DNA of 39,732 nt from Candidatus Pelagibacterales bacterium (GTDB lineage: Bacteria; Pseudomonadota; Alphaproteobacteria; TMED109), in NCBI GenBank assembly GCA_002715265.1, contig PAYS01000045.1, positions 1-39,732 on the forward strand, given 5' to 3'. A model generated the notes under the pieces. The model was not told the origin of the DNA. It did no database searches and saw nothing but the letters and a program-made list of their open reading frames with translations. Made by a program: the position numbers and the translations under genes. Positions 1,265-21,231 of this stretch are shown here, piece by piece. The stretch's first letter is position 1; each line of letters opens with the position of its first letter.

Positions 1265-1738
1265 CTATTGTGCATTATTTTGATAACTTCTCTGTGTGTC
1301 TCCCTTTTGAAGATCAGGTGGAGTATAATCAACATAAACTACGTCATAAGCTCCTGTGCCATCACCTGCAAGCCTGAATACTCTTTGAGCATAATCAGAG
1401 CCTTCATCTTGTAATCTTTGCATTGCTTCTCTATTTAAAACTATTTTATGCAATCTAGGAGAATTATTTGCATTTAAATCTTTAACTAGAATATAAATCA
1501 TAGAGTTTTCATAGTTTGGAACTATTGAGGTAATGATTTTAAACATTCCTTCTGGCCTTATATTCGTGGCATGTCCTAAGCTATCAAACATATTATATAA
1601 CGGCAACCATAATGCTAAACTTATAAGTAATACACACACACTTTTGTTAAAATACTTACTAGTAAGTAAATAAAAAATTGTTAAACATAAAATTATTATA
1701 GAAATTAGGGATATATTGCTTATCATGTTGCTTATCAA
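1265..1738 (-). CDS. Small membrane protein, two N-terminal TM segments plus soluble domain; unknown
   Basis: 157 aa; TTG start overlapping upstream stop (TTGA); possible alternative ATG four codons in; last gene of minus-strand operon. Confidence 0.7.
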   Translation of the reverse strand: MISNMISNISLISIIILCLTIFYLLTSKYFNKSVCVLLISLALWLPLYNMFDSLGHATNIRPEGMFKIITSIVPNYENSMIYILVKDLNANNSPRLHKIVLNREAMQRLQDEGSDYAQRVFRLAGDGTGAYDVVYVDYTPPDLQKGDTQRSYQNNAQ

Positions 1739-2262
1739 TTTGGTTTTGGGTAGTTAAAATTTTCTTCTTTAATATCTTGAGGCTCTTCCTCAATATCAGT
1801 AATTTGATTATTATTATCAAGAATAGGCTCGTCTTCAAATCTTTTGACAAAATTAAATTTATATTCTCTTATTTTATTAGAATCACTAACATGCATGGTC
1901 ATTTCTTTATATATACCATAATTTTCAGCAGCATTTTGTAAGTATAATGCTTTTTCAAGATCAAATGGTACTACTACATTAATAGGTTCGCTATTTTCAG
2001 GTATAATCATTAAGTATATAGATCTGTTAATTTCATCAATTTCCCAACCTTGGACTCGATGACTACCTGAAGGAGGATCTTGAGGATATCCTCTATATTT
2101 ATCATCAAAAATAACGATTAAAACTATTGATATAATAGATAAAATACCAACAAAAAACTTCATAAACTTATTATTAGCCTTAATAAATACTAGTCCAGTA
2201 AGAAATATTATGAGAGCTACAATTATTGAGTATGTTAGTAAGTTAATAAGAATGGTATGCAT
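1735..2262 (-). CDS. Small membrane protein, two TM segments plus soluble domain; unknown
   Basis: 175 aa; same layout as downstream gene; overlaps it by 4 nt. Confidence 0.72.
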   Translation of the reverse strand: MHTILINLLTYSIIVALIIFLTGLVFIKANNKFMKFFVGILSIISIVLIVIFDDKYRGYPQDPPSGSHRVQGWEIDEINRSIYLMIIPENSEPINVVVPFDLEKALYLQNAAENYGIYKEMTMHVSDSNKIREYKFNFVKRFEDEPILDNNNQITDIEEEPQDIKEENFNYPKPN

Positions 2263-2263
2263 T

Positions 2264-2866
2264 TTATCGAAGGCTTATTATTGATTTATATAAATTGTGA
2301 ATACTATCTTGAACTAATTTTTTATTATTATCTATTGTAAATCTAGCTACTGTAACTTCTTCTTTATTATTAGACAGCATTATTTCACCAGAAAAAATTA
2401 TTCCAATATCTCCTTTTCCAGTTATTTTAACTGTAACGGGAACAGGTAAATCATCTCCATAAGGACCATACAAATGCAAATTTACTATATATTCTCCTGG
2501 TTCTAAATTTCTAATAGAAGTCCATTCATAATTTAAAGGAGAATTATCATTTATTTTTCCTCTATCATCTCTCTCTAAATTTAATGAAGGTCCATCAGAA
2601 AATAGTCCCCATCCTACTGGAATGTTATCTGGCCCCATAGCCCATAAGTCAATATCGTGAGCAGCGCCTGTAGGCCAGGTTGCCTCAATTAAAATTTCTG
2701 TTCTAAGTGGAATTTCTTGCGGTTTGTTTACCGGGTTAATTAAAAAAGTTAAAATAAAAATAATAACTATTAAACTAAATACCATAAGAAATAGCATGTC
2801 TCTAAATACAGTACTTGTATTATTATCATTATTTGAATTGTATTTTTGTATCATATTACTTTTCAA
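2264..2866 (-). CDS. Single-TM membrane protein with ExbD/TolR-like topology and periplasmic beta-sandwich-like (DUF2135-like) domain
   Basis: 200 aa; TVFRDMLFLMVFSLIVIIFILTF TM with Asp at its start, followed by ATWPTGAAHDIDLWAMGPDNIPVGW; overlaps 11 nt with the TolQ-like gene. Confidence 0.7.
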   Translation of the reverse strand: MKSNMIQKYNSNNDNNTSTVFRDMLFLMVFSLIVIIFILTFLINPVNKPQEIPLRTEILIEATWPTGAAHDIDLWAMGPDNIPVGWGLFSDGPSLNLERDDRGKINDNSPLNYEWTSIRNLEPGEYIVNLHLYGPYGDDLPVPVTVKITGKGDIGIIFSGEIMLSNNKEEVTVARFTIDNNKKLVQDSIHNLYKSIISLR

Positions 2867-3518
2867 TATTTGGTATTATTTCAGACTCAACTTTTTCTAT
2901 TACATTAATTACAAATTTTTCAATAAAATTTGATAATATTTCGTAATGTAATTGAAGCCAAATTCCGCCAAATATGCTTCCCAACAATGTTGTAAATAAC
3001 GCCACTCCCATACCATTTACTATTTGGCCTAAAACCGTTTGCACTCTTGATAAATTTTGCCCACCAGCCAGACTGTCGCCTAACCCTCCTACAGCTATAA
3101 TAAAACCTATTACAGTCCCAATTAAACCCAATAATATTAGAAGGTTAGCTGTATAGGATATATATTTTATTTTTAAATATAATTTAACTTGAAATGTGTT
3201 GGCTAATAATGAATGGTCGTAAGATATGGATTTATTTCCAGAAAATTTCTTTCTTACAAGGTCTACATATTCACTAGCAAATCCTATTTGTTTATTTTCA
3301 TTTAAATAAGATATTTCTTTATTAATCCATAATGCTGCGTAAATACTCATTATCCATATTATAAAAAATATTAAACATATTACGTAGCTTAAATAACTAC
3401 TATCACTAGTAAATACTTGTTGTATCCATCCTAATAAATAAGCAGAATATAGCAATAGACAAAAGAATGAATTGATAAGTAAAAAAGTATAGATTAAAAT
3501 ATTTGCATTTTTTTTCAT
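2856..3518 (-). CDS. MotA/TolQ/ExbB proton channel family protein
   Basis: 220 aa; LLGLIGTVIGFIIAV...GMGVALFTTLLGSIFGGIW is the classic family signature. Confidence 0.88.
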   Translation of the reverse strand: MKKNANILIYTFLLINSFFCLLLYSAYLLGWIQQVFTSDSSYLSYVICLIFFIIWIMSIYAALWINKEISYLNENKQIGFASEYVDLVRKKFSGNKSISYDHSLLANTFQVKLYLKIKYISYTANLLILLGLIGTVIGFIIAVGGLGDSLAGGQNLSRVQTVLGQIVNGMGVALFTTLLGSIFGGIWLQLHYEILSNFIEKFVINVIEKVESEIIPNIEK

Positions 3519-3537
3519 TTTAAATCCTTAATTAAAG

Positions 3538-4605
3538 TTATTTTTTATCTTCAACAGTAATCATAGGCCCACCCCCTGAAGAGTCGTTTATAGAGTTTAA
3601 TTTCTTTCTAAGTGCCGCCTCTTCTTCTTTATGTTTCTTTACTCCGGGAATAATATCTATATATATGCCCATTTGTTCCGCTTTTCTGTACTCTCGTTTA
3701 GCTTTTGCTTCAAACCTTACTACGTCCTGTATATATCTTGGCCCAGCCTCATTAGGAAGTTTGGGCATTTTAGATCTTAAATAAAATATATCTCCAAGCA
3801 TTCTATGTATTCTAGCATTTTGCACTGGATCAATATTTCTTGGAATTAATTCCAAAGCATTCTCCATACTATTACTTGCATTTTTTAAATTTTTTCTTCC
3901 TTGTTCAATAGATGCAAGTTTTACATATCCTAAAGATAAATTTATATATGATTTACTTAAATGAATATTATTATTGGTCTTTAATAATTCAGTAATATTG
4001 TATTTTAAATATTCAATTGCCTCGTTTTTATCATTATATTTTTTTTCTAGCTCATATATATCTAATAAATTCATAGCTATTAAATAGTAAATATCACTAT
4101 TATTTAAATTATTTTCTTTATCAATAACAATAGCTTGCTCTAAATACTTATTGCTATTTTCTAAATTAATTTTTTTATTTTTATTAATTGCTTTATATGA
4201 TTCTGCTATTCTAATTAAACCTAATGTTTTTATATTAGTATTACTAGAATTGAGAATTTCTTTTAAGTTTGTTATTGAATCAATAATTTCATTATCTTTT
4301 TCATTTAATATTGCTAATTTCGATTCGGAAGAAAATTTTAATAATTTTAGTATTTCTATATTTTTTGTATTCATTTTACTTAAATGAGAAGTCAATAAGT
4401 AATGAGATGACTCTTTTGCATCTTTATAAAGACTTTTATTGTAACTATTTTGAATTATTTTAATTTCATTATTTATTCTTTCTTGCATTTTAGCTTCTTT
4501 AGCAGGCAAAATATTATTGTTAATAAAGCTGCGTAAATAAAAAGCTGTGCAGGCAAAAGAAATGCATATTAAAGTAATAATTATTTTATGAATATTATTA
4601 TACAT
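3538..4605 (-). CDS. N-terminally anchored TPR-like helical repeat protein
   Basis: 355 aa; N-terminal TM, repeated helical segments (NSNKYLEQAIVIDKE, KNASNSMENALELIPRN), charged C-terminus. Confidence 0.65.
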   Translation of the reverse strand: MYNNIHKIIITLICISFACTAFYLRSFINNNILPAKEAKMQERINNEIKIIQNSYNKSLYKDAKESSHYLLTSHLSKMNTKNIEILKLLKFSSESKLAILNEKDNEIIDSITNLKEILNSSNTNIKTLGLIRIAESYKAINKNKKINLENSNKYLEQAIVIDKENNLNNSDIYYLIAMNLLDIYELEKKYNDKNEAIEYLKYNITELLKTNNNIHLSKSYINLSLGYVKLASIEQGRKNLKNASNSMENALELIPRNIDPVQNARIHRMLGDIFYLRSKMPKLPNEAGPRYIQDVVRFEAKAKREYRKAEQMGIYIDIIPGVKKHKEEEAALRKKLNSINDSSGGGPMITVEDKK

Positions 4606-4607
4606 AT

Positions 4608-5150
4608 TTATTTTACAGGAACATCAATTAAAATATTAATAGGTATTACTCCCGTAGCACCTCTCATAATCATTGTTACCCAATTACTTACAAAATATGC
4701 TTTATCGATTTCTACATTTCCTATATTAAAAGTGAAAATTGCTGTTTTACCTTTATTTTTTTCAACGTTAGTGAATGCATCTATTGTTATACCTTCAATA
4801 TTAATTGCTTCAAATATTTTATTGCTATGAAATGATTTTAATATTGCTGCAGGTACATCGGTATTAGGCGCTGGATTTGATTCCACAGAGCCTTCATCGT
4901 TTATACTAGTGATAGCTTGCGTACTGCCTTGTGCTAAAAATATAGGTCTTCTATAGGCACCTTTATTACTATACCTAATTGATATCTTTAATATATCATT
5001 TATCCTTTCTATTTTTTTCAGTCTAAAGTTCCAATGACTGTCTTTTAAAAAAGTTTTATTAATTTTAACACTTTTTTGTGTTTCATTTGAATAAGACAAA
5101 TTAGTAAAATTAAAAAAAAGAATTGATATTATAAATAAGGTTTTAAGCAT
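4608..5150 (-). CDS. Secreted hypothetical protein
   Basis: 180 aa; signal peptide MLKTLFIISILFFNFTNLSYSNE then beta-rich domain. Confidence 0.65.
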   Translation of the reverse strand: MLKTLFIISILFFNFTNLSYSNETQKSVKINKTFLKDSHWNFRLKKIERINDILKISIRYSNKGAYRRPIFLAQGSTQAITSINDEGSVESNPAPNTDVPAAILKSFHSNKIFEAINIEGITIDAFTNVEKNKGKTAIFTFNIGNVEIDKAYFVSNWVTMIMRGATGVIPINILIDVPVK

Positions 5151-5167
5151 TTTATATATTTCAATAT

Positions 5168-5686
5168 TTACCTTTGATATTCATTAAGATAGTTAAGACC
5201 ACCTTCGTTAGTTTGATCATCAATTTTTCCATCTTCATTCCTATCAATACCTACATAAATTGTTTCAAATTGTTCAGAAATTCCTTCGGCATAATATTGT
5301 ACTCCTACAGGATTTGCTCCACCTAGTATCATATCTGTTTTATCATGAATTGATTCAACTAATGTATTGATATTTATTATCGCAAATTTAATCTCTTCAG
5401 GAATATTTGATTCATTTATTTTATTAGATATTTCATTCAAAATTGGAAGAAGATTTGTATCTAAATACATTCGTAAATCTGATGTTACGTGTTTAATATT
5501 ATCTATGTCATCAATATTTAATAACGATTCATCAGATAAATTTTTAGCCTCTTTAATGAAATTATTTAGAGTAAAAATATATGAATTATTATTTTTATAG
5601 TTTTCGTCTAAAACCATAGATTGAACATTAAAAGAAACAAAATATATGAAAATAATAATTAAAAATTTATTATATTTTATAGTCAT
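5168..5686 (-). CDS. Secreted hypothetical protein with EF-hand/dockerin-like Ca-binding loop
   Basis: 172 aa; signal peptide; C-terminal DRNEDGKIDDQT; stop/start overlap with upstream cytochrome c gene. Confidence 0.65.
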   Translation of the reverse strand: MTIKYNKFLIIIFIYFVSFNVQSMVLDENYKNNNSYIFTLNNFIKEAKNLSDESLLNIDDIDNIKHVTSDLRMYLDTNLLPILNEISNKINESNIPEEIKFAIININTLVESIHDKTDMILGGANPVGVQYYAEGISEQFETIYVGIDRNEDGKIDDQTNEGGLNYLNEYQR

Positions 5687-6078
5687 TATTCTTCATCTTC
5701 CCAATTTGCTCCTTCTTTAGCCATAGTCTCTAAATAAGCACCAATAGCATTTATTTGCTCATATTCTAATGGACCCATGCCTCCCCACGCCGGCATTCTT
5801 TTATATCCATTTACTACAGCGCTAACAAAAGCAGTATACCCTCTCTTAAATTTTCTTAAATTTGCAGATTTTGGTAGTCCTCTGCCCTTTCCATTTGCCC
5901 TAAGACCGTGGCAGTAAGCACAATTCGCGCGATACAATGTCTTTCCCTCTTCTATTGCTGTTGCATCACCAGAAATAGGGTTAGAAGATTTGACTGATTC
6001 AGTCCCGACTGCATGTGCAGATATAGAAGTAAATGTATACAACAAAATAACTATTATATAATTAAGCAATTTATTCAT
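5686..6078 (-). CDS. Class I cytochrome c (monoheme)
   Basis: 130 aa; signal peptide, CAYCHG heme motif, distal RMPAWGGMG Met region. Confidence 0.9.
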   Translation of the reverse strand: MNKLLNYIIVILLYTFTSISAHAVGTESVKSSNPISGDATAIEEGKTLYRANCAYCHGLRANGKGRGLPKSANLRKFKRGYTAFVSAVVNGYKRMPAWGGMGPLEYEQINAIGAYLETMAKEGANWEDEE

Positions 6079-6105: not shown

Positions 6106-6139
6106 AATCTCATAGAAAGTTTTAACCTTCTATGAGATT
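6106..6139 (-). terminator. Rho-independent terminator-like hairpin between PQQ dehydrogenase and cytochrome c genes
   Basis: AATCTCATAGAA / TTCTATGAGATT 12-bp perfect stem, 10-nt loop; A-run at 6099-6107 gives a U tract on the minus strand. Confidence 0.75.
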
Positions 6140-6150
6140 AATTTTGGTAT

Positions 6151-7842
6151 TTATTTTACACTTAGACTGACTATTACGCCTCCGTTGTTAACAGGGTTAG
6201 ATGATCCAGCTGTACCAAATTGAGGAAGTCCCCCAAAAGTGAAAGCAATATGTTGTTTACCATTTGCTAAGTAGGTAACTGCTGCAGCATCAGAGTTAGA
6301 GTTAGTGTCAAAAGTGTAAAGGATCTGACCTGTAGTAGCATTAACCACATTTATTTGACCACCTTGAGTAGAGAATATTGTCAAATTACCCGCTGTGGTT
6401 AGCATTCCTCCAGAGTCTCCACCTTTATTAACTTCTGTCCTCCAAGCTTCAGATCCATCTTTAATGTTATGAGCTGAATTTACTTGTTTATCAACATCAT
6501 CAGGTCCTATTTCAAAAGCTGCGCCTAGGTTTCGTACATTACTAGTAACCTGAACTTTTTCTAATGTATAAGCCATAGGAGCCTCTCTTCTAGGAAGATA
6601 AATCATTTCAGTTTGAGGATTATAAGCTGCTGGTGACATGTTTACAGAACCTAGTAATGAAGGCCAAACTATTACTTCTACACCTTCTTGTGGTACTGCT
6701 TGTGACCAAATTGGGTTACCATCAGTATCATAACCATTAGCCCATGTAATTTTATCAGCTATTTGAGGTGCTTGTAAGAATTTTCCAGTAACAGCATCAA
6801 GATAATGCATATAACCAGTCTTATTTGCCTGGACCACTGTTGTTTGGTTATTGATATCTACTAGTATAGGAGTATGTTGTGCATCATAATCCCATGGATC
6901 TCCAGGAACTACTGTATATCTCCACTTAACTTTACCAGTATCAGTATCTACAGCAACGATAGCTGCAGCTCCAACATTTGCGTTATTTCCTTCACTTCCT
7001 GCACCTTGGCGTTCACCATAAGGATTCCATGGATATGCATTTGCTGTTCCTGTAAAGTAGGTTTTTAATTCATGATCATAAGTGCCAGCCATCCATGGTC
7101 CTGCACCACCATAAATTCTACTGTCTCCTGGCCATGTATCTGCTCCTGGCTCACCTGGTTGAGGTATCATTGGAGCTGCCCATAGTCTTTCACCGGTTTC
7201 TAAACTATGTGCATGCACATATCCTTGTAAACCTCCTGTATCGGTAGCATTCATTGGAACAATTAATTTTCCAGGAATTGCTACAGGGTTAGATGTACAA
7301 AAATAGCCATTTCCGTCTGCAGTCGTTTCAAATTGTCTTGGATATGGTCTATCTATTTTATATGAATATACTTCATCGCCAGTTTTATAGTTTAATGCCA
7401 CTATAGAACATTCAGTAGATAACATATAAACAGTTGAACCTGCTATTGCTACGCCTCTATGTTTTCCAGTAAAGAATGGATTAAATTGACCTCCAAAATC
7501 CTCTGGAATTTCATGGTCATATCTCCAAATATTCATTCCTGTTATAGCGTCTATAGCATGAAGTTGATTATCTTGAGCATAAAATAGCATATTATCATGT
7601 TCAATTACTGGACCTTGAGCATTAGTTTGTCCACCAGTTGAATAAATCCAATCTATTGATAAATTTCCAGCATTACTATCATTTATTTGATTTAAAGGAC
7701 TAAATCTATGTGCTGCATGATTGCCGTTAGTATGCAACCAATCATCACCTGGTTCTGCTAACAAATCATTATTTGTAACATCAGCATTTGCCTTTGTTAA
7801 AAATGACAAGAAGATTAGCATTGATAAGATAACTTTAATCAT
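6151..7842 (-). CDS. PQQ-dependent (quinoprotein) alcohol dehydrogenase family, periplasmic
   Basis: 563 aa; signal peptide; repeated beta-propeller W-motifs (LHAIDAITGMNIWRY, IVAVDTDTGKVKWRY, INVVNATTGQILYTF), PWDYDAQH active-site region. Confidence 0.88.
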   Translation of the reverse strand: MIKVILSMLIFLSFLTKANADVTNNDLLAEPGDDWLHTNGNHAAHRFSPLNQINDSNAGNLSIDWIYSTGGQTNAQGPVIEHDNMLFYAQDNQLHAIDAITGMNIWRYDHEIPEDFGGQFNPFFTGKHRGVAIAGSTVYMLSTECSIVALNYKTGDEVYSYKIDRPYPRQFETTADGNGYFCTSNPVAIPGKLIVPMNATDTGGLQGYVHAHSLETGERLWAAPMIPQPGEPGADTWPGDSRIYGGAGPWMAGTYDHELKTYFTGTANAYPWNPYGERQGAGSEGNNANVGAAAIVAVDTDTGKVKWRYTVVPGDPWDYDAQHTPILVDINNQTTVVQANKTGYMHYLDAVTGKFLQAPQIADKITWANGYDTDGNPIWSQAVPQEGVEVIVWPSLLGSVNMSPAAYNPQTEMIYLPRREAPMAYTLEKVQVTSNVRNLGAAFEIGPDDVDKQVNSAHNIKDGSEAWRTEVNKGGDSGGMLTTAGNLTIFSTQGGQINVVNATTGQILYTFDTNSNSDAAAVTYLANGKQHIAFTFGGLPQFGTAGSSNPVNNGGVIVSLSVK

Positions 7843-9795: not shown

Positions 9796-11358
9796 TTAAA
9801 GATTACCTTTTTTCAGCTCGCTTACTAAATATTCACCTTGTCTAATAGCAAGAGCAGTAATAGTTAGAGTTGGGTTAGCTGCTGCGCCTGTTGTCATTAT
9901 AGAGCCATCAGAAACAAATAAATTTTTGATATCATGCGTTTGTCCCCATTTATTAACAACCCCATCTTCAGGTCTAGCACTCATTCTGTTAGTACCTAAA
10001 TTATGAGTAGAAGGATACGGCGGTGTTCTAAAAATTTGTACTGCCCCAACTGAATTATATAATGCTTCAGCCTTTTCATAAGCATAATTTCTCATTGCTA
10101 TATCATTAGGATGATCATCAAAATGAACATTTGGCGCTGGCATTCCATATTGGTCTTTTATTGAATCAGATAAAGTAACCCGATTTGTAGCTTGAGGCAT
10201 ATCTTCTCCAACTAACCACATACCCGCAATATTTGAATAACCATCCATCATTTTTGCAAAATCAGCTCCCCAAGCTCCTGGGTCTAAGAAACTAGATAAA
10301 AATGCTGGTCCTAATGCTAAGGTTTCCATATAGTAACCACCTACAAACCCTCTAGAAGGATCATTTATAACTTCATCACCAATAAAACCAGCCATAGTTT
10401 CACCACGATAAAAGTTAACTTCTTTTTCAAATCTCGCATAGACAGATCCTGTCATATGTCTCATGTAGTTTCTTCCAACTTGATCTGAACTGTTTGCAAG
10501 TCCTCCAGGAAACATATTAGAAGCACTATTAAGTAATAATCGAGGAGATTCTATAGAATTACCAGCAACACAAATTACTTTAGCAGCTTGTCTCTGAATA
10601 TCTCCATTAGCATCAACATATATTACCGCATCAACTAAGCCTGATTTATTATGAGTAATTTGCACTACATGAGATTGAGGTCTTAAATCAAGTAATCCTG
10701 TTTTAAGTGCTTTTGGTATTTCGCTTACGGCTGTACTCCATTTAGATGAATTTTTATCTCCTTGAAAGTTAAAACCATCTTGGATGCTACCAGGTCTACC
10801 ATCATAAGGTTCTGCATTAGTTCCGTAAGGTCCAGTAGCATAATATTTGTAACCTACTCTCTCTGCACCATTAGCAAATACTTTATAATTATTATTTGCA
10901 GGTAAGGCGGGTCTACCATGTCTATGAGTAGAGCCTATAGCTTTTTCAGCCTTATCATAATATGGTTCCATATCTTTAAGAGAAATAGGCCAGTCAAGTA
11001 AAGAAGCTCCTTCTACATCTCCATAAGTAGTACGAGTTTTAAACTCATAGTCTAAAAATCTTGGAGTTGCTCCGGCCCAGTGAGTAGTAGTCCCTCCTAC
11101 GGCTTTAACTAACCAAGTAGGTAAACCAGGGAAATCTTTATTTACTCTCCAAGATCCACTAGTTCCTCTCGCATCAAGCCAAGCCATTTGTAAAAATGCA
11201 CTCCATTCGTCATTAGAGTAGTCTTCTGGTTTAAGGAATGGACCAGCTTCTAAACATACACATGGTATTCCTTCTTTAGTTAATTGATAAGCCATTTGGC
11301 CACCACCTGCTCCTGAGCCAATAATAACAATGGCATTTTCATTTTTATCTATATTCAT
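9796..11358 (-). CDS. GMC-family FAD dehydrogenase (gluconate/polyol dehydrogenase large-subunit type)
   Basis: 520 aa; GSGAGGG FAD motif, KAVGGTTTHWAG, C-terminal STHNLGTNRMSARPEDGVVNKWGQTHDIKNLFVSDGSIMTTGAAANPTLTITALAIR. Confidence 0.9.
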   Translation of the reverse strand: MNIDKNENAIVIIGSGAGGGQMAYQLTKEGIPCVCLEAGPFLKPEDYSNDEWSAFLQMAWLDARGTSGSWRVNKDFPGLPTWLVKAVGGTTTHWAGATPRFLDYEFKTRTTYGDVEGASLLDWPISLKDMEPYYDKAEKAIGSTHRHGRPALPANNNYKVFANGAERVGYKYYATGPYGTNAEPYDGRPGSIQDGFNFQGDKNSSKWSTAVSEIPKALKTGLLDLRPQSHVVQITHNKSGLVDAVIYVDANGDIQRQAAKVICVAGNSIESPRLLLNSASNMFPGGLANSSDQVGRNYMRHMTGSVYARFEKEVNFYRGETMAGFIGDEVINDPSRGFVGGYYMETLALGPAFLSSFLDPGAWGADFAKMMDGYSNIAGMWLVGEDMPQATNRVTLSDSIKDQYGMPAPNVHFDDHPNDIAMRNYAYEKAEALYNSVGAVQIFRTPPYPSTHNLGTNRMSARPEDGVVNKWGQTHDIKNLFVSDGSIMTTGAAANPTLTITALAIRQGEYLVSELKKGNL

Positions 11359-11373
11359 TTTTTTTCTCCTAAC

Positions 11374-11949
11374 CTACTGATTTGCATTAGTTTGTTTAGC
11401 GGCTAATTTATTTTGTGTAGCTACAAAAAAATTAGCATGGTCAGGATGTTCTTCTATTCTTGGTTCAGGTAGCCAATCAAGATCATTAAATCCACGATTT
11501 ACATAGCCTCCTTTATCAAAACTAGCGCCTTCATAACCAAGTACATCCCAAACTTCTTTATCATTATATAATGTCACTACACTTGTGCCGCGAACATGAT
11601 TAAAGAATGGTGAACCTTCAATACTCTTAAGGTATTTAGTTGCTTCGTTAAAGCTAAGATCCCCAAAAGAGTTTTTTTCTAAGTCTCTTAGTCCATCTCT
11701 CATCATTAACATTTTGCCTGCATCAGCATTGCCTTTATTGATGACATCTTCCGTAGTTCTGTCATAAGGTCCATTTGGAAATGTATTATGTGGATATAGT
11801 GTTCTTACCATTTTATCTAATAGTTTACGTTCTTTATTACTAGAACCTGCAACTATTTTGGCTTCTGCAACGTTTAATGCTGCCCACATTTTTATTAGAG
11901 CAGTAGAAGATGCTGTTCCAAGTAAGAAATTTCTTCTTGTAAATTTCAT
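11374..11949 (-). CDS. Gluconate 2-dehydrogenase subunit 3 (gamma) family protein, Tat-exported
   Basis: 191 aa; TRRNFLLGTASSTAL Tat signal; LDKMVRTLYPHNTFPNGPYDR; directly upstream of the GMC subunit. Confidence 0.85.
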   Translation of the reverse strand: MKFTRRNFLLGTASSTALIKMWAALNVAEAKIVAGSSNKERKLLDKMVRTLYPHNTFPNGPYDRTTEDVINKGNADAGKMLMMRDGLRDLEKNSFGDLSFNEATKYLKSIEGSPFFNHVRGTSVVTLYNDKEVWDVLGYEGASFDKGGYVNRGFNDLDWLPEPRIEEHPDHANFFVATQNKLAAKQTNANQ

Positions 11950-12036
11950 TAAACCCTCCCTTTATAAAAATTTACGAATACTATTTTAATTTTTAATTTA
12001 AGCCTCTCTTCATAAATTAAATGTTAAAATAGTTAT

Positions 12037-12061
12037 GATAATGAGTTTGATTCTCATTCTC
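12037..12061. promoter_or_regulatory. Fur-box-like operator candidate
   Basis: GATAAT GAGTTT G ATTCTC ATTCTC resembles F-F-x-R-R arrangement of the GATAAT hexamer; lies upstream of the gamma-subunit/GMC genes. Confidence 0.4.
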
Positions 12062-12116
12062 ATATATAGCTAACAATAAAATGAGATATAAAGCAAATAA
12101 AATATTTTAAAATAGC

Positions 12117-12476
12117 TTATTTATTCCATTTTAAATTATTACTATTTAAACTTTCTATATAAGAAGCCAACTGATCAATTTGAATACTATCAAGTTTGCC
12201 CATACCTCCCCATGCAGGCATTCTAGAATATCCACTAACTAAAACATCAATAAAAGCAATATATCCTCTCCTATACTTACTTAGGTCTGGTGTTTTAGTA
12301 TGTCCATTATTTATACCTTTAGCTTTAGGACCATGACATTTTGAACATTTAATATTATATAGTTTTTTACCCGAATTTATTGCTTCCAGGTTTCCTGATA
12401 ATGGGTTTAATGAATCAGCAAAGGAAAAAGATATAGATATGTAAAAACAAAATATTAAAATAAGAATTTTATTCAT
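12117..12476 (-). CDS. Class I cytochrome c (monoheme), paralogue of the 5686-6078 protein
   Basis: 119 aa; CSKCHG heme motif; NPLSGNLEAINSGKKLY...RRGYIAFIDVLVSGYSRMPAWGGMG parallels the first cytochrome. Confidence 0.9.
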   Translation of the reverse strand: MNKILILIFCFYISISFSFADSLNPLSGNLEAINSGKKLYNIKCSKCHGPKAKGINNGHTKTPDLSKYRRGYIAFIDVLVSGYSRMPAWGGMGKLDSIQIDQLASYIESLNSNNLKWNK

Positions 12477-12745: not shown

Positions 12746-13936
12746 ATGAACATGATAAGCTTTTTATTTAGGTATTTTAAATTGCTAATTACATTACCAT
12801 TCTTGTTTTGTGTGGCAAATGCTAATGATAAAAATATTATAAAAATAGGAACTTTATTGCCTTATTCAGGAGTGTACACTGTTCTCGGAGAAGAAATAAC
12901 AAATGCTATGAAATTAGCGTTTGAGGAGCAAGAGGATATCTTTGATAAAAAAATTGAAGTTATAAGAGGAGATACAGAAGTTAAACCAAATATTGCATTA
13001 CAAAAAGCTAGAAAGTTAATATCTTCCGACAAAGTAGATATTCTTGTTGGGCCCGTCTCTTCTTCTGTAGCTTTAGCAATAAGAGATGTTGTAGTACAAA
13101 CAAAAACTCCTTTAATTATTCCAAATGCTGGTGCAAATGTATTAACTAGAGAAAAATGTTCAAAATTCATAACCCGTATTTCATTTTCAAATCATCAAAT
13201 AAATGCTCCAATGGGAACTTGGATGGCAAATCAAGGTATAAAGACTGCATTTTTATTAGCACCTGATTATGCAGCAGGCAAAGAAATGATGTCAGCATTT
13301 AGGGATAATTTTGAAGCAGGTGGCGGAAGTATTTTAGGTGAAGAATACACGCCATTTCGTAAAACAAAAGATTTTGGACCCTATTTAGCAAGAATAAAAA
13401 ATAGTGGTGCTGAGGCATTATATGTTTTTTATGCAGGTGGAGAAGCTATAAACTTTATTAAGCAGGCTCATTCTTTTGGACTAGGCGACATTATGAAAAT
13501 TACTGGTGCAGGATGGACTACATCTCCCCTATTTCTTCCAGCTCAGAAAGATGCGGCCTTAGGTTTTATTGGAAGCTTAAATTATGTTCCGTCTATTGAT
13601 AGTGTTGAAAATAATAATTTTAAAAAAGCATACATAGATAAGTATGATAGAGTCCCATCAGAATTTGCAGTGCAAGGTTATGACACTGGAAAAGTTATTA
13701 TTGAAGCTGTAAAATCTCTTTCGGGTGACATTTCAAATAAAGAAAAATTAGCTAGTGCAATTAATAATATATCTGTTACTGGTCCCAGAGGACCTTTAAC
13801 AATAGATAAAAAATCAAATAATGTAATTCAAAATATTTATATTTTTGAAGTAGTAAGTGGCGATAATATTCCTGAGTTAAAAATTTTAGATACTATTCAA
13901 GCTGTTAAAGATCCAGGATCTGGCTGTAATTTATAG
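12746..13936 (+). CDS. Branched-chain-type ABC transporter substrate-binding protein (candidate aromatic acid binder)
   Basis: 396 aa; signal peptide; IKIGTLLPYSGVYTVLGEEITNAMKLAFEE; first gene of a 5-gene ABC operon. Confidence 0.9.
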   Translation: MNMISFLFRYFKLLITLPFLFCVANANDKNIIKIGTLLPYSGVYTVLGEEITNAMKLAFEEQEDIFDKKIEVIRGDTEVKPNIALQKARKLISSDKVDILVGPVSSSVALAIRDVVVQTKTPLIIPNAGANVLTREKCSKFITRISFSNHQINAPMGTWMANQGIKTAFLLAPDYAAGKEMMSAFRDNFEAGGGSILGEEYTPFRKTKDFGPYLARIKNSGAEALYVFYAGGEAINFIKQAHSFGLGDIMKITGAGWTTSPLFLPAQKDAALGFIGSLNYVPSIDSVENNNFKKAYIDKYDRVPSEFAVQGYDTGKVIIEAVKSLSGDISNKEKLASAINNISVTGPRGPLTIDKKSNNVIQNIYIFEVVSGDNIPELKILDTIQAVKDPGSGCNL

Positions 13937-13942
13937 TATATT

Positions 13943-14791
13943 ATGTATTTAATTCAATTTTTTAATGCTCTACAATTTTCTATGACGTTATTTCTGCTAT
14001 CGGCAGGATTGACTATAATTTTTGGACTAATGAAAATTGTCAATTTAGCGCATGGAAGCCTATATATGATTGGAGCTTATATAGGTTTATCAATATGGAC
14101 AATAAGTACTTCTTTTTGGTTAGCTTTAATTTTAGCTCCATTATTTACAGCACTTATTGGTTATTTATTATATCAAGTTTTATTTCGCCATATTCAAATT
14201 GCTGACCCAATGAGACAAGTACTTTTAACATTTGGTTTAATATATATAGGATTAGATAGTGTTAGACTATTTTGGGGCACAATGAGTCATTCAATTTCAG
14301 CACCAAATATTTTATCTAATTCAATAATAGTATTAGGAGAATCTTATCCAAGTTACAGATTATTTGTTATTTTTATTGGAATTTTGATTGCTGCTTTACT
14401 TTATATCTTTTTAGAAAAAACAAAAATAGGGGCTAAAGTGAGAGCTTCAGTAGATGACCCGGAAATGGCAAAATTATTAAGAATAGATACTGATAAAATA
14501 CTTATATATATGTTTGCATTAGGTTGTGGATTAGCAGGATTGGCAGGAATTACTGTTGCACCTATTTTAGGTGTGGAGCCTGGAATGGATATGGAAGTTT
14601 TAGTTTTAACTTTAATAGTTGTAGTTGTAGGAGGGCCTGGGAGCCTAAAAGGAGCTTTAATTGGTTCATTATTAATTGGTTTTGTAGATAGTTATGGAAA
14701 GGTTTATATTCCAGAAATAGCTCAAATTATAATATACGCGGTAATGGCTGTAACATTATTATTAAAACCAAATGGATTATATGGAAGATAA
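13943..14791 (+). CDS. LivH-type ABC permease
   Basis: 282 aa; AGLTIIFGLMKIVNLAHGSLYMIGAY; VVVGGPGSLKGALIG. Confidence 0.93.
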   Translation: MYLIQFFNALQFSMTLFLLSAGLTIIFGLMKIVNLAHGSLYMIGAYIGLSIWTISTSFWLALILAPLFTALIGYLLYQVLFRHIQIADPMRQVLLTFGLIYIGLDSVRLFWGTMSHSISAPNILSNSIIVLGESYPSYRLFVIFIGILIAALLYIFLEKTKIGAKVRASVDDPEMAKLLRIDTDKILIYMFALGCGLAGLAGITVAPILGVEPGMDMEVLVLTLIVVVVGGPGSLKGALIGSLLIGFVDSYGKVYIPEIAQIIIYAVMAVTLLLKPNGLYGR

Positions 14792-14792
14792 A

Positions 14793-15764
14793 ATGAAGGC
14801 AGTAAATTATAACCCTAGACTAAGATTGCATTTATTTATAGTACTTGTAGTAAGTGCATTGATATCGATCTTTTTTGGAGGATATTTTACCAGGTTTTTT
14901 ATAGCTGAAATTGCTATATTATCTATATTTGCAATGAGTTTAGATTTTTTAGCTGCTAGAGGAGGTCTTGTATCATTAGGTCATGCAATGTTTCTAGGTA
15001 TAGGTGCCTATAGTACAACTATTTTCATTTTAAATTTAGGAATAAGCCCTTTTATAGCCACAATTTTATCTCTTCTAATTGGATGTTTCATAGGATTATT
15101 AATTTCTTATTTTATAGTAGTTTTAAATGGTATCTTTTTTATAATGGTCACTTTAGCACTAGGAGAAATGTTTCACGCTTGGGTATTTACATCAGAACTA
15201 TTAGGTGGATCAGATGGTATATCAGGCATTATTAGACCAGATATTTCATTTATGGGTATTGATATGAATGACCCATTTATTTTTGCTATTTATTCATTAT
15301 TATGGATGTCATTAATATATTTTATTTTATCACGTATAACTGATTCTCCTTTAGGAAGAAATTTGGACGCCTTAAGACAAAATCATATGAGATTATCTGC
15401 CATTGGAGGTTATGCAAAGGTTTATAAAATTATAGCATTCACAATATCAAGTGGAGTTGCATCTATTGCCGGCTCATTATATGTGCAGTTAAATGGATTT
15501 ATATCTCCTGAATTAACGCATTGGACAGTATCTGGAGAAGGCTTGATTATGATTATTGTAGGAGGAATAGGATCTATTTCTGGTGCAATACTGGGTGCTA
15601 GTGTGGTTTATATATTACAACATGAATTATCTAATTTTATTAGTTGGTGGATGCTAATAGTAGGATTGCTGTTTATTTTAGTAGTTTTATTTATGCAAGA
15701 TGGATTATGGGGATTAATTGAAAAACTAAGATTGCGTCTACTAAAAGGTAAAAATAAAATATGA
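14793..15764 (+). CDS. LivM-type ABC permease
   Basis: LDFLAARGGLVSLGHAMFLGIGAY; ORF opens at 14772 but ATG at 14793 just after the LivH stop is the likelier start. Confidence 0.92.
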   Translation: MKAVNYNPRLRLHLFIVLVVSALISIFFGGYFTRFFIAEIAILSIFAMSLDFLAARGGLVSLGHAMFLGIGAYSTTIFILNLGISPFIATILSLLIGCFIGLLISYFIVVLNGIFFIMVTLALGEMFHAWVFTSELLGGSDGISGIIRPDISFMGIDMNDPFIFAIYSLLWMSLIYFILSRITDSPLGRNLDALRQNHMRLSAIGGYAKVYKIIAFTISSGVASIAGSLYVQLNGFISPELTHWTVSGEGLIMIIVGGIGSISGAILGASVVYILQHELSNFISWWMLIVGLLFILVVLFMQDGLWGLIEKLRLRLLKGKNKI

Positions 15765-16504
15765 TATTGGAACTAAAAAAATTATCTAAAAGCTTTGGAT
15801 CTATTAAGGTATTAAAAAATATAAATCTTAAAATAGACAATAATGAATGTGTAGGAATTATAGGTCCGAATGGAGCCGGTAAAAGTACTTTATTTAATGT
15901 AATTGCAGGGCATCTTAAACATGATATAGGAGATGTTATATATAAAAACATCAATATAAATAATAAATCAAATGAACAACGGGCAAGGTTTGGTATTGTT
16001 CAAAGTTTTCAAAAGAATTCAATGTTTCCTGAAATGACAGTATTAGAATCAATAATGCTTGCAATAAGCCACAGATTAAATATCACCTTCCAACTATTTA
16101 CTAATTTAAATTCAAATATAAGAATTCTTAATGAAGCATTTGAAATTATTAAAAATATTGGACTAGATAAATATTCAAATTCTCGATCAGATGCTTTGTC
16201 TTACGGATTGCAAAGACAATTAGAAATTGGAATTGCTATAGCTTGTAGTCCTACTCTATTACTGTTAGATGAACCTACTGCTGGAATGAGCCCATTAGAA
16301 ACTAAAAATATTATTAGACTTATTAAGAACCTATCTAAAAATTATACAATTGTAATAGTAGAACATGATATGGAAGTAATATATAATTTAGCACATCGTA
16401 TTTATGTATTAGATAGAGGAAAAATAATTTTTAATGGAGAATCAGAAGAAATTAAAAATTCTAAATTAGTACAAGATAAATATTTAGGTATTGAAAATGT
16501 CTAA
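15761..16504 (+). CDS. LivG-type ABC ATPase
   Basis: GPNGAGKST Walker A; LSYGLQRQLEIGIA signature; LLLLDEPTAGMSP. Confidence 0.93.
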   Translation: MILELKKLSKSFGSIKVLKNINLKIDNNECVGIIGPNGAGKSTLFNVIAGHLKHDIGDVIYKNININNKSNEQRARFGIVQSFQKNSMFPEMTVLESIMLAISHRLNITFQLFTNLNSNIRILNEAFEIIKNIGLDKYSNSRSDALSYGLQRQLEIGIAIACSPTLLLLDEPTAGMSPLETKNIIRLIKNLSKNYTIVIVEHDMEVIYNLAHRIYVLDRGKIIFNGESEEIKNSKLVQDKYLGIENV

Positions 16505-17204
16505 TGTTTTATTGAATGTTGAAAATTTAAACACTTATTATGGAAAAAGTCATATTCTTCAAGGAATAAGCTTTAGCCTCTCTGACAATGATTGTATGGC
16601 CATTTTAGGAAGAAATGGTGCGGGCAAAACAACTACTCTAAGATCATTAGTTAATCTTTCAAAACCAGATTCTGGAAATGTTATTTTTATGGATGAAAAT
16701 TTAAAAAATATAAAACCATATTATATTGCTGAAAAAGGAATGACATTAGTACCAGAAAATAGAGGAATGTTTCCTTCGCTAACTGTAGAGGAAAGTTTAA
16801 GTATTATTTCACAATATAATTCAAATAATTTATGGACTTTACCTAAAATATTTGAATTGTTCCCTTCTTTAAAGCATAGACTTAAAAATAAATCTAATGA
16901 ATTTTCTGGAGGTGAACAACAGATGCTAGCTATCAGTCGAGCTTTATTAACAAACCCAAAATTACTGCTTTTAGATGAGCCTACACAAGGTTTAGCACCT
17001 AATATAGTTAATGAATTATTTAAAGCATTATCAAGCCTGCTGAAATCAGGTTTAAGCATAATAATTGTTGAACAAAATATTAAAATGGCATTAAATCTTG
17101 CTAATAAAGTCTCTGTAATTGGTAAAGGAAAGACTAAATGGACAGGTTCAAAAAGTAAGTTTCAAAATAATACAGGTGTGCAGAAAGAGTGGTTAGGTAT
17201 TTAA
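16497..17204 (+). CDS. LivF-type ABC ATPase
   Basis: GRNGAGKTT; FSGGEQQMLAISRAL; LLLLDEPTQGLAP; ORF opens at 16491, ATG at 16497 also plausible. Confidence 0.92.
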   Translation: MSNVLLNVENLNTYYGKSHILQGISFSLSDNDCMAILGRNGAGKTTTLRSLVNLSKPDSGNVIFMDENLKNIKPYYIAEKGMTLVPENRGMFPSLTVEESLSIISQYNSNNLWTLPKIFELFPSLKHRLKNKSNEFSGGEQQMLAISRALLTNPKLLLLDEPTQGLAPNIVNELFKALSSLLKSGLSIIIVEQNIKMALNLANKVSVIGKGKTKWTGSKSKFQNNTGVQKEWLGI

Positions 17205-18632
17205 TTATTGCACTATGTCCACATATTTATAGTCAATACCTAGGTTGTTAATACCTCTTATTGGAGATGCAATCCAACTTGCAGTTTTATCAGGATCCGT
17301 TACTTGAACCATTAAACTATTAATAAACTCTTTATCACCGTTTGAAGGCAACCAATCATTAATATTATTATTCATATCATCTTTTGATATTATCTTTCCA
17401 TTCGGATCTGTATTAATATTTGCCCACATACCAATATTTCTTCTAAACCTTGTACTCGGAAGATTTAAAGTTATGTCGTAACCAGCTTTGTTTATTAACC
17501 TATTCCATCGTTTTAATCCAATTTCACAATCCTTGACATATGCTTGCCGAGTAATTTCATTCATTGCATTTCTTGTAGGAACCTCTTGGTCTATTATTTT
17601 GTTGTCAACAATACCTTCTAATTTAAAAATAGAATCTTTTTCGGAATTATCATCATACCTAGCCTCGTCAGGTCTACCTTTTAAACCATTTGCAAATGAT
17701 GTTGCCGCATTAGAAGATATTTCAGAACCAAATAAGTCTAAAGACGAAGAAAACCAAAAATTTATATACTTCTGTAATGTTTGTAAGTCTATAGCTCCAG
17801 CATTTCTAATAGCTTCTATTGAATCTGTATTTAATTTTTTCATTGTATCTAAAGATTTTTGAACCATTCTGGTTATACCAGTTTCTCCAACTTGCATGTG
17901 ATGAGCTTCTTCAGTTAACATAAATTGGCAAGTTCTTGCTAAAGGATCAAAACTACTTTCCGCTAAAGACTTTAACTGATATTTTCCATCTCTATCTGTA
18001 AAGTAGGTAAACATAAAAAAACTTACCCAGTCCGTTATAGGTTCATTAAAAGTTCCCAATATTCTTGGGTTATCTTGATCTCCTGAATATCTCTCTAACA
18101 ATCCTTCCGCTTCCTCTCTACCATCTCTTCCAAAATAAGCATGAAGAAGGTAAACCATTGCCCATAAGTGTCTTCCTTCTTCAACATTTACTTGAAATAA
18201 ATTTCTTAAATCAAATAGTGAAGGACAAGTTTTGCCTAAAAGACGTTGCTGTTCAACTGATGCAGGCTCTGTATCACCTTGAGTAACTATTAATCTTCTT
18301 AATATAGATCTATAATCTCCAGGAACTTGTTGCCATACTGGTTGGCCTATATTGTCACCAAAATGTATTTTTCTATCTTTTACTTTATCATTTAAGAATA
18401 TTCCCCATCTATACTCAGGCATTTTTACTTTTCCATATGATGCCCAACCTGCACTGTCTACAGATATGGCAGTTCTAAGGTATACATCAGCTGACTGAAA
18501 CCCCTCGGGTCCCATTTCTTGCCACCAATTTTTAAATTTAGGTTGCCAATGCTCTAATGCTCTTTGTAGAGATAAATCATTACTTAAATCTACATTATTA
18601 GGTATTCTTTCTTGGTAATTAAGTACACTCAT
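17205..18632 (-). CDS. boxB: Benzoyl-CoA 2,3-epoxidase subunit B (di-iron oxygenase)
   Basis: 475 aa; MGPEGFQSADVYLRTAISVD..., NVEEGRHLWAM and LTEEAHHMQVGETG di-iron ligand motifs. Confidence 0.95.
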   Translation of the reverse strand: MSVLNYQERIPNNVDLSNDLSLQRALEHWQPKFKNWWQEMGPEGFQSADVYLRTAISVDSAGWASYGKVKMPEYRWGIFLNDKVKDRKIHFGDNIGQPVWQQVPGDYRSILRRLIVTQGDTEPASVEQQRLLGKTCPSLFDLRNLFQVNVEEGRHLWAMVYLLHAYFGRDGREEAEGLLERYSGDQDNPRILGTFNEPITDWVSFFMFTYFTDRDGKYQLKSLAESSFDPLARTCQFMLTEEAHHMQVGETGITRMVQKSLDTMKKLNTDSIEAIRNAGAIDLQTLQKYINFWFSSSLDLFGSEISSNAATSFANGLKGRPDEARYDDNSEKDSIFKLEGIVDNKIIDQEVPTRNAMNEITRQAYVKDCEIGLKRWNRLINKAGYDITLNLPSTRFRRNIGMWANINTDPNGKIISKDDMNNNINDWLPSNGDKEFINSLMVQVTDPDKTASWIASPIRGINNLGIDYKYVDIVQ

Positions 18633-18634
18633 TT

Positions 18635-20284
18635 TTACACCCTTTTATTATCAAACTTCGCTTTACTCCCGGATCCGAATAATTTTAAGGCACCCTTATC
18701 ACTGGAGGCATTAGGTCTATTAAATATCCAGTTTTGCCATGCAGAGAGTCTTCCAAAGATTTTAGTTTCACATGATTCCTTTCCAGGAAATCTTAAATTT
18801 GCCTCTAATCCAGTTAATGCATCGGGAGAAAATGTTGTTCTTTCTTCTATGCTTAACCTAATTTCCTCATCCCAATCCAAATCATCAGGTATTACTGTAA
18901 TTAAACCATGCTGAAATGCTTCTTCTGCATTTAATTTTAAACCAATAATATCTTTTAAACTTTTTAATTTATCTTTATTTGAATTAAATCTAGTCTCTAA
19001 TCTAGTTTGACCGTTTACCATATGCAAAAAATTAAAATTTAAATTAGATAAACTAATAAAAGGACCATTCTTATTTTTATTTAACAGTTCATTATTTAAC
19101 ATATATGATCTATCTGCGCAAAATAGAAGTTCTGATAAAATGCCACCGAAACAACTATCATTATCAATAATTGTAAAAATTGACCGAGAGGAAATATCAA
19201 GTCTTGAAAAAGTTCTTCTGATATGTCCAATAATTTCGTTAATTAACCAATTTTCTTTATTATCGTATAAAATATTACTTAAATTGTTTATGCAATCTAG
19301 CGATCCTTTTGATTTAATAGTTAATACACCAATTTCTAATTCATTTGTCCTTAATAGAAGAATTAGATCATCTAATTCTCTAATAAATTTTAAGGCCCAC
19401 CATTCACAACCTATTTTATTGATTTCCTCAATATTAAGTATGTCTTTTTCACTTGGTCCATTAATTATAATTTCTGCCGTTCTATCATTTCTGTTTAATG
19501 AACATGAAATTGTGTCGTATTCAATTTTATTATCTTTAATACTACAGTTTAGTTTAGATAATGATATGCCATTATTACCGTTTCTTAATTTGACCTCTTC
19601 ACACAATTTATCAGCTCTTTTTTCAATAAGATCAGAAAATTGTGATGGAGGAGCAATATAATCAACTAAATTCCATTCAATAGCTTTCTTGCCTCTAACA
19701 CCATCAGCATTTGTGCAAAACATATCTGCTATATCTTTTCTAACATTTCTTTTGTCTACTAACCTAGTAACACCTCCAGTGCCTGGTAATACTCCTAAAA
19801 GAGGCACTTCAGGTAGGCTAACTGTGCTAGATCTATCATCTACTAATAATATTTCGTCACAGGCAAGGGCTACTTCATATCCACCACCAGCACATATTCC
19901 ATTAATTGCTGCAATAAATTTAATTGAGCCAGATTTACTAGAATCTTCAAAACCATTACGAGTCTCATTGGTGAATTTACAAAAGTTAACTTTCCATGAA
20001 TGTTCAGACATACCTAACATATATATATTTGCACCAGCTGAGAAATTTTTTTCTTGTTTTGAAGTAATAATTACAACTTTTATATTTGGATGTTCAAACC
20101 GCATTCTTTGGATAATATCATTAAGTTCAATATCTACACCGAGGTCATAAGAATTTAGTTTTAATTCGTAGCCTGGTTTAATTCCATCTTTTTCAGAAAC
20201 GTTTAAATATAAATAAGCTCTATCTGATTTATATTCAATCTCCCAATGTTTATAGTTCTTAGGTAATCGTTCAAAAGTTATCAA
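18635..20284 (-). CDS. boxC: 2,3-epoxybenzoyl-CoA dihydrolase (BoxC, crotonase superfamily)
   Basis: 549 aa; double crotonase-like; NGICAGGGYEVALACDEILLVDDRSSTVSLPEVPLLGVLPGTGGVTRLVDKRNVRKDIADMFCT. Confidence 0.95.
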   Translation of the reverse strand: MITFERLPKNYKHWEIEYKSDRAYLYLNVSEKDGIKPGYELKLNSYDLGVDIELNDIIQRMRFEHPNIKVVIITSKQEKNFSAGANIYMLGMSEHSWKVNFCKFTNETRNGFEDSSKSGSIKFIAAINGICAGGGYEVALACDEILLVDDRSSTVSLPEVPLLGVLPGTGGVTRLVDKRNVRKDIADMFCTNADGVRGKKAIEWNLVDYIAPPSQFSDLIEKRADKLCEEVKLRNGNNGISLSKLNCSIKDNKIEYDTISCSLNRNDRTAEIIINGPSEKDILNIEEINKIGCEWWALKFIRELDDLILLLRTNELEIGVLTIKSKGSLDCINNLSNILYDNKENWLINEIIGHIRRTFSRLDISSRSIFTIIDNDSCFGGILSELLFCADRSYMLNNELLNKNKNGPFISLSNLNFNFLHMVNGQTRLETRFNSNKDKLKSLKDIIGLKLNAEEAFQHGLITVIPDDLDWDEEIRLSIEERTTFSPDALTGLEANLRFPGKESCETKIFGRLSAWQNWIFNRPNASSDKGALKLFGSGSKAKFDNKRV

Positions 20285-20299
20285 TTTATACTCCTTAAT

Positions 20300-20317
20300 T
20301 ATGCAATATATTGCATA
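20300..20317. promoter_or_regulatory. Candidate BoxR operator upstream of boxC
   Basis: Perfect 18-bp palindrome TATGCAATATATTGCATA containing TGCA-N6-TGCA, just upstream of the boxC RBS. Confidence 0.65.
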
Positions 20318-20325
20318 TATAATTA

Positions 20326-21231
20326 TTATCCAATATTTAAATTTATTTTATTTTTAAACTCTTTAAATGTCGCTCCTACATCCATATTTTCAGTGTTTAT
20401 GACTAAATCAGCTTGTGCATATAAATGCTGTCTTTCTTTTAATATATTATAAAGATCATCCATAGCTTTAGGATTAGAATTCATTGGCCGTGAGTCTCCT
20501 TGTTTAATTACTCTATCCATATGCTCTTTAGGATTTGCTTTTATCCATATGGTGTAAAAGTTATTTAATAAAAAATTAAATGTTTCTTTTTCAGAAACTA
20601 TACTACCTCCAGTGGATATAATGAGTTTATTACTCTTCTTATACAATTTATGAATAGCATTAAATTCTAATCTTCTATACATTTCTTGTCCGCCTAACTC
20701 AATAATTTCACTTATATTCATACCTCCAAGTTTTTCAACTTCATTAGTAACTTCAAACATAGGTATGTTATTTTCTTTGCTATACATGCCCCCAAGTGTT
20801 GACTTCCCTGCTCCTCTTAAACCAATTAATGCAATTTTATTTTTTTTTTTCTTTTTATTTTCTATATCTATTTTATTTAAAAAATTAACGATTTTGTTTA
20901 TTTGAGAGTTATTATATTGATCAAATTTTCCTTTAATCATTTCAATTTTAGTATCCTTATTTGATTTTAAGAATAATAAATTAGATAGTGTAATATTTAA
21001 GGAATAAGCAATATTTTTTAAAATTGCCAAGGTAGGGTTTCCTCCACCACTTTCTAATTGAGCTAGGTATCTCATAGAAATTCCAGATCTATTAGCTAAA
21101 ATTTGTCTACTCATTCCTCTTTGTGATCTGTAACTTCTTATTACTGACCCTATATCAGATAAAGTTAACTTTTCTTTCTCAATATCCTTAAGAGAGTTCA
21201 GTGAAAACTCTGATTCTTTTAAATTTGCCAT
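20326..21231 (-). CDS. boxR: BoxR/BzdR-type regulator: XRE HTH domain fused to shikimate-kinase-like domain
   Basis: 301 aa; RSYRSQRGMSRQILANRSGISMRYLAQLESGGGNPTL + IALIGLRGAGKSTLGG Walker A. Confidence 0.94.
   Translation of the reverse strand: MANLKESEFSLNSLKDIEKEKLTLSDIGSVIRSYRSQRGMSRQILANRSGISMRYLAQLESGGGNPTLAILKNIAYSLNITLSNLLFLKSNKDTKIEMIKGKFDQYNNSQINKIVNFLNKIDIENKKKKKNKIALIGLRGAGKSTLGGMYSKENNIPMFEVTNEVEKLGGMNISEIIELGGQEMYRRLEFNAIHKLYKKSNKLIISTGGSIVSEKETFNFLLNNFYTIWIKANPKEHMDRVIKQGDSRPMNSNPKAMDDLYNILKERQHLYAQADLVINTENMDVGATFKEFKNKINLNIG

Follow-up and report, generated by a model that had tools for sequence, protein, structure and literature searches.

The DNA analysed here, called the window throughout, is an AT-rich contig of 39,732 nucleotides from a 1.67-Mb draft alphaproteobacterial genome. 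At 1265-6078 its minus strand carries eight co-directional open reading frames (ORFs) coding for a cytochrome c and for proteins B, C, D, E, F, G and H, adjoining the gene of a pyrroloquinoline quinone (PQQ) dehydrogenase. Genes E, F and G form a conserved three-gene core, which, as judged from sequence, very probably encodes a motor of the MotA/ExbB class that is driven by protons and has a new partner subunit. Copies of this core located beside PQQ dehydrogenases are likely to serve those enzymes, a reading drawn from gene neighbourhood.

Channel subunit E was clearly assigned at the family level, since it scored 36.9 bits against a PF01618 gathering score of 22.9 (E-value 3.6e-9), in agreement with the TolQ/ExbB/MotA identity initially proposed for it. 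A profile search of the PDB with 16 E proteins retrieved MotA (8gqy, 5.5e-6) and also matched ZorA. Hydropathy displayed four hydrophobic helices, and the motifs Gly-x-x-Gly-Thr and Ala-Leu-x-Thr-Thr were retained in almost every one of some 80 relatives. Among some 81 aligned E proteins, the pore threonines of the last two helices were present at T135 in 77, at T176 in 77 and at T177 in 80.

F is well supported as an ExbD/MotB-type partner of E that would bear a new periplasmic beta domain. Its start was corrected from TTG 2866 to ATG 2854 (196 residues), so that E and F do not overlap. Its transmembrane helix begins with F-x-D (VFRDMLFLM), similar to the ExbD helix encoded in the same genome (PLIDIVFLL), and displays Asp19 (position 23 if numbered from the TTG start), an aspartate found in 83 of 93 F proteins. 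Periplasmic acidic positions were better conserved than this transmembrane residue: numbered from the TTG start, D71, D73, L97, D100, G103, E114 and G124 were invariant (96/96), D101 occurred in 95 and D107 in 90 of the 96 proteins. From these features we infer that E and F pair and use protons, and that the F domain holds a putative metal site, its acidic set resembling a Ca2+ or lanthanide site. In the F clade where valine replaces the transmembrane aspartate (loci L103, L106, L107, L108, L114, L115, L117, L120 and L121; L numbers designate the loci compared), a lysine follows a few residues later and the periplasmic acidic residues are kept. Two F paralogues accompany a single E at L038 (8424-12792), L043, L044, L049, L050, L053 and L054, which suggests a partner heterodimer.

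Comparisons at the family level did not place F in a described group. No match to PF02472 (ExbD/TolR) was obtained with 18 F proteins at E-values up to 3, and no fitting Pfam family was found for the beta domain. The original prediction that no recognisable ExbD was present is therefore correct by family but not by function, as the F helix and its aspartate are of the ExbD/MotB type; the channel does have a partner candidate, and F fills that role. In a Foldseek search with the AlphaFold2 model of F (pLDDT 87), the best match was 2qng (E-value 3.9e-5), with modest template modelling (TM) scores of 0.46/0.53, followed by the calcium-bound structure 2lge. By sequence comparison 2qng is a relative of TerD, a Ca2+-binding beta sandwich (the TerD query matched 2kxt over its full length), and the order of DxD, D-D/N-R and E residues appeared similar by eye. 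F differs from TerD in its predicted membrane anchor and periplasmic location, and no Pfam match to TerD (PF02342) occurred among F proteins. With hhalign, probabilities stayed below 1% both for a single TerD and for a TerD alignment of 11 rows. Homology to TerD was thus rejected and F is TerD-like in fold at most, so that the proposed metal site is based on the conserved residues together with this modest fold match. Family DUF2135 was matched by 3 of 18 members (best E-value 0.032) and was not accepted.

G and H had been described as two small proteins with two transmembrane segments. Both indeed display two helices, along with a small beta domain. They are paralogous (cross matches and alignment), and the start of H was corrected to ATG 1726 (153 residues). 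The AlphaFold2 model of G (pLDDT 82) retrieved weak OB-fold-like matches only (E-value 0.04 or worse). D is an anchored protein of TPR type, TPR_12 being matched at 3.8e-5 in its homologue from L011. B proteins displayed a Dx[D/N]xDG loop in 8 out of 8 cases, with scores below cut-off for the Pfam EF-hand families. A B homologue was found fused to cytochrome c in one ORF in five relatives (L006, L010, L041, L042 and L065), a fusion that connects B with electron flow out of the dehydrogenase. C gave no significant Pfam or NCBIfam match and is conserved within the cluster. Among the small proteins, weak matches such as those to a retron effector, a holin and MtrB were disregarded as chance.

All eight overlapping or nearly abutting ORFs reported earlier were present. 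Gaps measured -1 (cytochrome c/B), 17 (B/C), 2 (C/D), 19 (D/E), 1 (E/F), 1 (F/G) and 8 bases (G/H), a spacing that fits a single operon. The PQQ dehydrogenase gene, described before as fused to this set, is only adjacent to it: a strong terminator, made up of a stem and T-run at 6139-6106, lies between the two, which argues against a simple shared transcript. The dehydrogenase is probably transcribed on its own, with possible read-through into the eight-gene operon.

Features of the E-F-G cluster and the adjoining dehydrogenase gene in the window
Feature	Position	Strand	Characteristics and evidence
PQQ dehydrogenase	6151..7842	-	563 residues, signal peptide; TIGR03075 match, alignment to 1kv9 and 6zcv (PedH)
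Intrinsic terminator, boundary between dehydrogenase and eight-gene operon	6106..6139	-	15-bp stem, 4-base loop, T-run
Cytochrome c	5686..6078	-	130 residues, exported, one haem; PF13442 1.5e-13, PF00034 3.1e-8
B, exported, DxNxDG EF-hand-like loop near C-terminus	5168..5686	-	ATG overlaps cytochrome c stop
C, exported, matches no family	4608..5150	-	Pfam and NCBIfam scans; kept in cluster
D, single N-terminal membrane anchor and TPR-like repeats	3538..4605	-	355 residues; hydropathy, TPR matches in homologue
E, MotA/TolQ/ExbB-type channel subunit, four transmembrane helices	2856..3518	-	PF01618, profile matches, conservation, hydropathy
F, probable partner subunit, one transmembrane helix and predicted periplasmic beta domain	2264..2854	-	Conservation, AlphaFold2, Foldseek
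G, two transmembrane helices and small beta domain, third core component	1735..2262	-	AlphaFold2, gene order
H, G paralogue, found in the clade of the window	1265..1726	-	G/H cross matches, alignment

The dehydrogenase scored 339 bits against TIGR03075 (cut-off 480) and is thus related to the methanol/ethanol family, outside the named subfamily. Alignment with 1kv9 and PedH (6zcv) indicated that the catalytic Asp, the metal Asn and the stacking Trp are retained, as is a further Asp (DYD), which is characteristic of lanthanide-dependent enzymes. Phe-Phe replaces the usual Cys-Cys pair and Lys replaces Arg at the quinone contact. Every dehydrogenase of the window clade and of the paralogous cluster of L038 type has the Phe-Phe pair; in those at 6151-7842 of the window and at L038 4212-5879 it goes with a lanthanide-type DxD. 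The genome itself makes PQQ (PqqE is present) and encodes a PedA1-type protein.

The same components were recovered, in three arrangements, in L005, L006, L010, L011, L041, L042 and L065 (the latter cut by a contig end). Such recurrence in at least seven other loci, with E and F sharing 47-67% identity, shows that the cluster is not a chance association. A second, diverged E-F-G set with two F paralogues occurs in the same genome (G000:C18), next to another PQQ dehydrogenase (also below the model cut-off), a cupredoxin and a weakly MoxJ-like binding protein. More broadly, 64 of 385 sampled alphaproteobacterial genomes contained F at E-values up to 1e-5, with strong matches in 56 (about 15%). 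Across the phylum, F occurred in 18 of 399 genomes besides that of the window, a few of them outside the class. In the 85 loci read, E stood beside F in 81 and G in 76. The order E>F>G was kept in 74 out of 75 loci, which come from numerous families of the Alphaproteobacteria and from a few other ones. A DUF3108-like lipoprotein gene adjoins E-F-G in about 12 loci (e.g. L058 8165-8857 and L112 10636-11328); its product may be a partner of the stand-alone motor in the outer membrane.

Proximity of the core to quinoproteins was repeatedly observed, as the original prediction implied for relatives of the cluster. A PQQ dehydrogenase gene lay within 10 kb in 28 of the 85 loci, and genes resembling the lanthanide importer PedA1A2BC occurred in 7 further ones, one of these (L114) being recognised by its permease match alone. 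Representatives of the importer-like genes passed the cut-offs of TIGR03863, 03864, 03866 and 03861. PedA1A2BC is an ABC transporter required for growth of Pseudomonas putida at low La3+ (PMC6839425). Linkage was seen in 17 of the 52 genomes from the class sample, versus 1 of 37 arbitrary regions taken from genomes of this kind (Fisher p 4e-4). Presence of F and of a PQQ dehydrogenase also coincided at the genome level (37/56 versus 69/329, p 6e-11, uncorrected for kinship). On the F tree, a quick one with some long branches, no fewer than 5 changes are needed to explain the dehydrogenase link, which is found at four distinct positions: in the window clade, in the paralogue clade of the same family, in a clade with L056-L104 and in L116. 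There is thus good evidence that the link of E-F-G to quinoproteins is real, without being universal.

E would constitute the channel ring of an inner-membrane motor of MotA/ExbB (5:2) type, proton-driven and assembled with F, G and H. The single helix of F would enter this ring with its proton-binding Asp, and F would hold its beta domain in the periplasm, where the near-invariant acidic residues may act as a Ca2+ or lanthanide site. In the window cluster, the motor would work together with the anchored TPR protein D and the exported proteins B and C. Its targets would be the periplasmic quinoprotein and the cytochrome of the latter, and its most likely task the loading or refreshing of metal and PQQ in the dehydrogenase. 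Such a step is favoured because F and B carry conserved acidic motifs of calcium type, some neighbouring genes handle lanthanides and enzymes of this class need Ca2+ or Ln3+. In genomes devoid of PQQ enzymes, the E-F-G core would have another client. As a whole, this is the best explanation at hand and may well be right, although we would stop short of calling it probable; loading or refreshing is its least certain part and is put forward tentatively. A bolder version, in which E-F-G-H and B form a proton-driven metal insertase and turning of the F domain loads metal (and PQQ) into the enzyme, is unlikely; if true, it would put a rotary motor to a use not known until now.

Several observations weigh against this explanation. 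More than half of the loci displayed no quinoprotein link, including a clade of about 22 loci, and most of the genomes tested among these lacked PqqE and PQQ dehydrogenase. PqqE was absent from most stand-alone families tested but present in the three genomes of family f34. The core function is therefore not quinoprotein-specific, and neither a strict PQQ link nor the specificity originally proposed for the machine can be upheld. Linked dehydrogenases were a mixture of lanthanide-type (DxD) and calcium-type (DxT) enzymes, so no single metal accounts for them and a strict lanthanide link as a general rule was likewise discarded. Nine F proteins, all from one clade, carry Val at the position of the transmembrane Asp, the F domain and TerD lack similarity at the profile level, and the co-occurrence counts of F and PQQ dehydrogenase ignore kinship. 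Alternatively, E-F-G might be a general, Tol-like envelope motor acting on cell-wall or outer-membrane lipoproteins, its proximity to quinoproteins being incidental. The stand-alone clade, the copy of Azospirillum brasilense Sp7 (without PQQ dehydrogenase in the stretch read) and the DUF3108-like neighbour all speak in its favour. Yet linkage is seen in at least four F clades, whose layouts differ, versus 1 of 37 control regions, and nine components stay together despite rearrangement; a general motor with incidental neighbours thus seems rather improbable.

The motor might also power uptake across the outer membrane (of a lanthanide chelate, PQQ or an alcohol substrate) in the manner of ExbBD-TonB, with B, C or G transmitting force. 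PedA1A2BC-like genes beside E-F-G in several loci are in line with this, as is a TonB-dependent receptor gene near the second cluster (L038 14549-16390) and again in L045, L047 and L051. However, the cluster has no TonB/TolA-like protein, the genome possesses its own ExbB-ExbD-TonB system and no receptor turned up in the window cluster or in what was read of its close relatives, which leaves uptake an unlikely role. A sensory function, with proton flow or metal binding to F signalling periplasmic Ca2+/Ln3+ for regulation of the dehydrogenase, is very improbable: sensor kinase and response-regulator genes occur near some loci (L075, L082), but the window cluster lacks a regulator and the channel residues of E are conserved as in energy-converting motors. 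A published hint comes from Methylomicrobium alcaliphilum, where a gene pair of MotA/TolQ/ExbB type and mxa genes are jointly repressed on La3+ (PMC6277846); this would suit a sensor if that pair were kin to E-F.

Among known systems, ExbBD/TolQR share with E-F a PF01618 channel, the pore Thr/Gly, a one-helix partner with Asp and adjacent genes. They differ in that E has four helices, F lacks PF02472 and has an acidic beta domain, G is an extra core protein and the cluster is devoid of TonB, TolA, TolB and Pal. The last point, already part of the original prediction, was borne out by Pfam and NCBIfam scans of the eight genes. A standard Tol/Ton system was rejected on account of these missing partners and because an ordinary ExbB-ExbD-ExbD-TonB locus exists elsewhere in the genome; for the same reason the genes are not orthologues of a standard Tol/Exb system. 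Near-identical versions of this locus were found on contigs C1 and C29 (L039 2800-5273 and L040 7166-9063), adjoining a TonB-dependent receptor gene; their second ExbD displays Asn instead of the transmembrane Asp, and the duplication may be an assembly effect. MotAB and ZorAB have a four-helix channel, and by profile E finds its best solved relatives in MotA (8gqy) and ZorA. In contrast to them, E has a short cytoplasmic loop, its partner has no peptidoglycan-binding match and the cluster has no other Zorya or flagellar genes. Zorya ZorAB itself was discarded: ZorA models were the best NCBIfam matches to E, yet scored 20.5 bits versus a cut-off of 500.

The accessory proteins MxaRSACKLD, among which calcium insertion is attributed to MxaA/K/L, resemble E-F-G by a possible role in servicing a periplasmic quinoprotein. 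Only the cytochrome of the operon matched methanol-oxidation models (weakly), however, and no MoxR or vWA gene was seen in the cluster. A precedent in organization is provided by TolQ-like motors with vWA partners (PMC12204202), where the partner retains its Asp helix, the periplasmic domain is swapped and a TPR gene lies nearby; the swapped domain is a vWA domain there and another beta domain in F, and PQQ is unmentioned in that report. The kind of system is thus already known, since channels with swapped partner domains have been published, with vWA partners as above or as varied 'generic ion transporters' (PMC12505986). The literature searched (most subscription journals being outside its scope) contained no account of the cluster, nor of F as a partner, G as a component or the link to quinoproteins, and these last three aspects appear to be new here. 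With F, motors of the MotA/ExbB family would gain a new type of partner domain. Quinoprotein dehydrogenases are widespread in the ocean (PMC11996626). Delivery of Ca2+ or lanthanides to them in the periplasm is poorly understood, and E-F-G, repeatedly found beside quinoproteins or a PedA1A2BC-type importer, offers a concrete candidate. A. brasilense Sp7, a cultured strain, has a copy of the core.

Elsewhere in the window, genes similar to those of BoxB, BoxC and BoxR types (aerobic benzoyl-CoA pathway) and a branched-chain-type ABC transporter were recognised by eye at 17205-21231 and 12746-17204; given these Box-like neighbours, the substrate of the dehydrogenase could be an aromatic alcohol. 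At 9796-12476, a GMC oxidoreductase, a protein resembling gluconate-dehydrogenase subunit 3 and a second cytochrome c, homologous to that of the cluster, would make up a second alcohol-oxidising unit.

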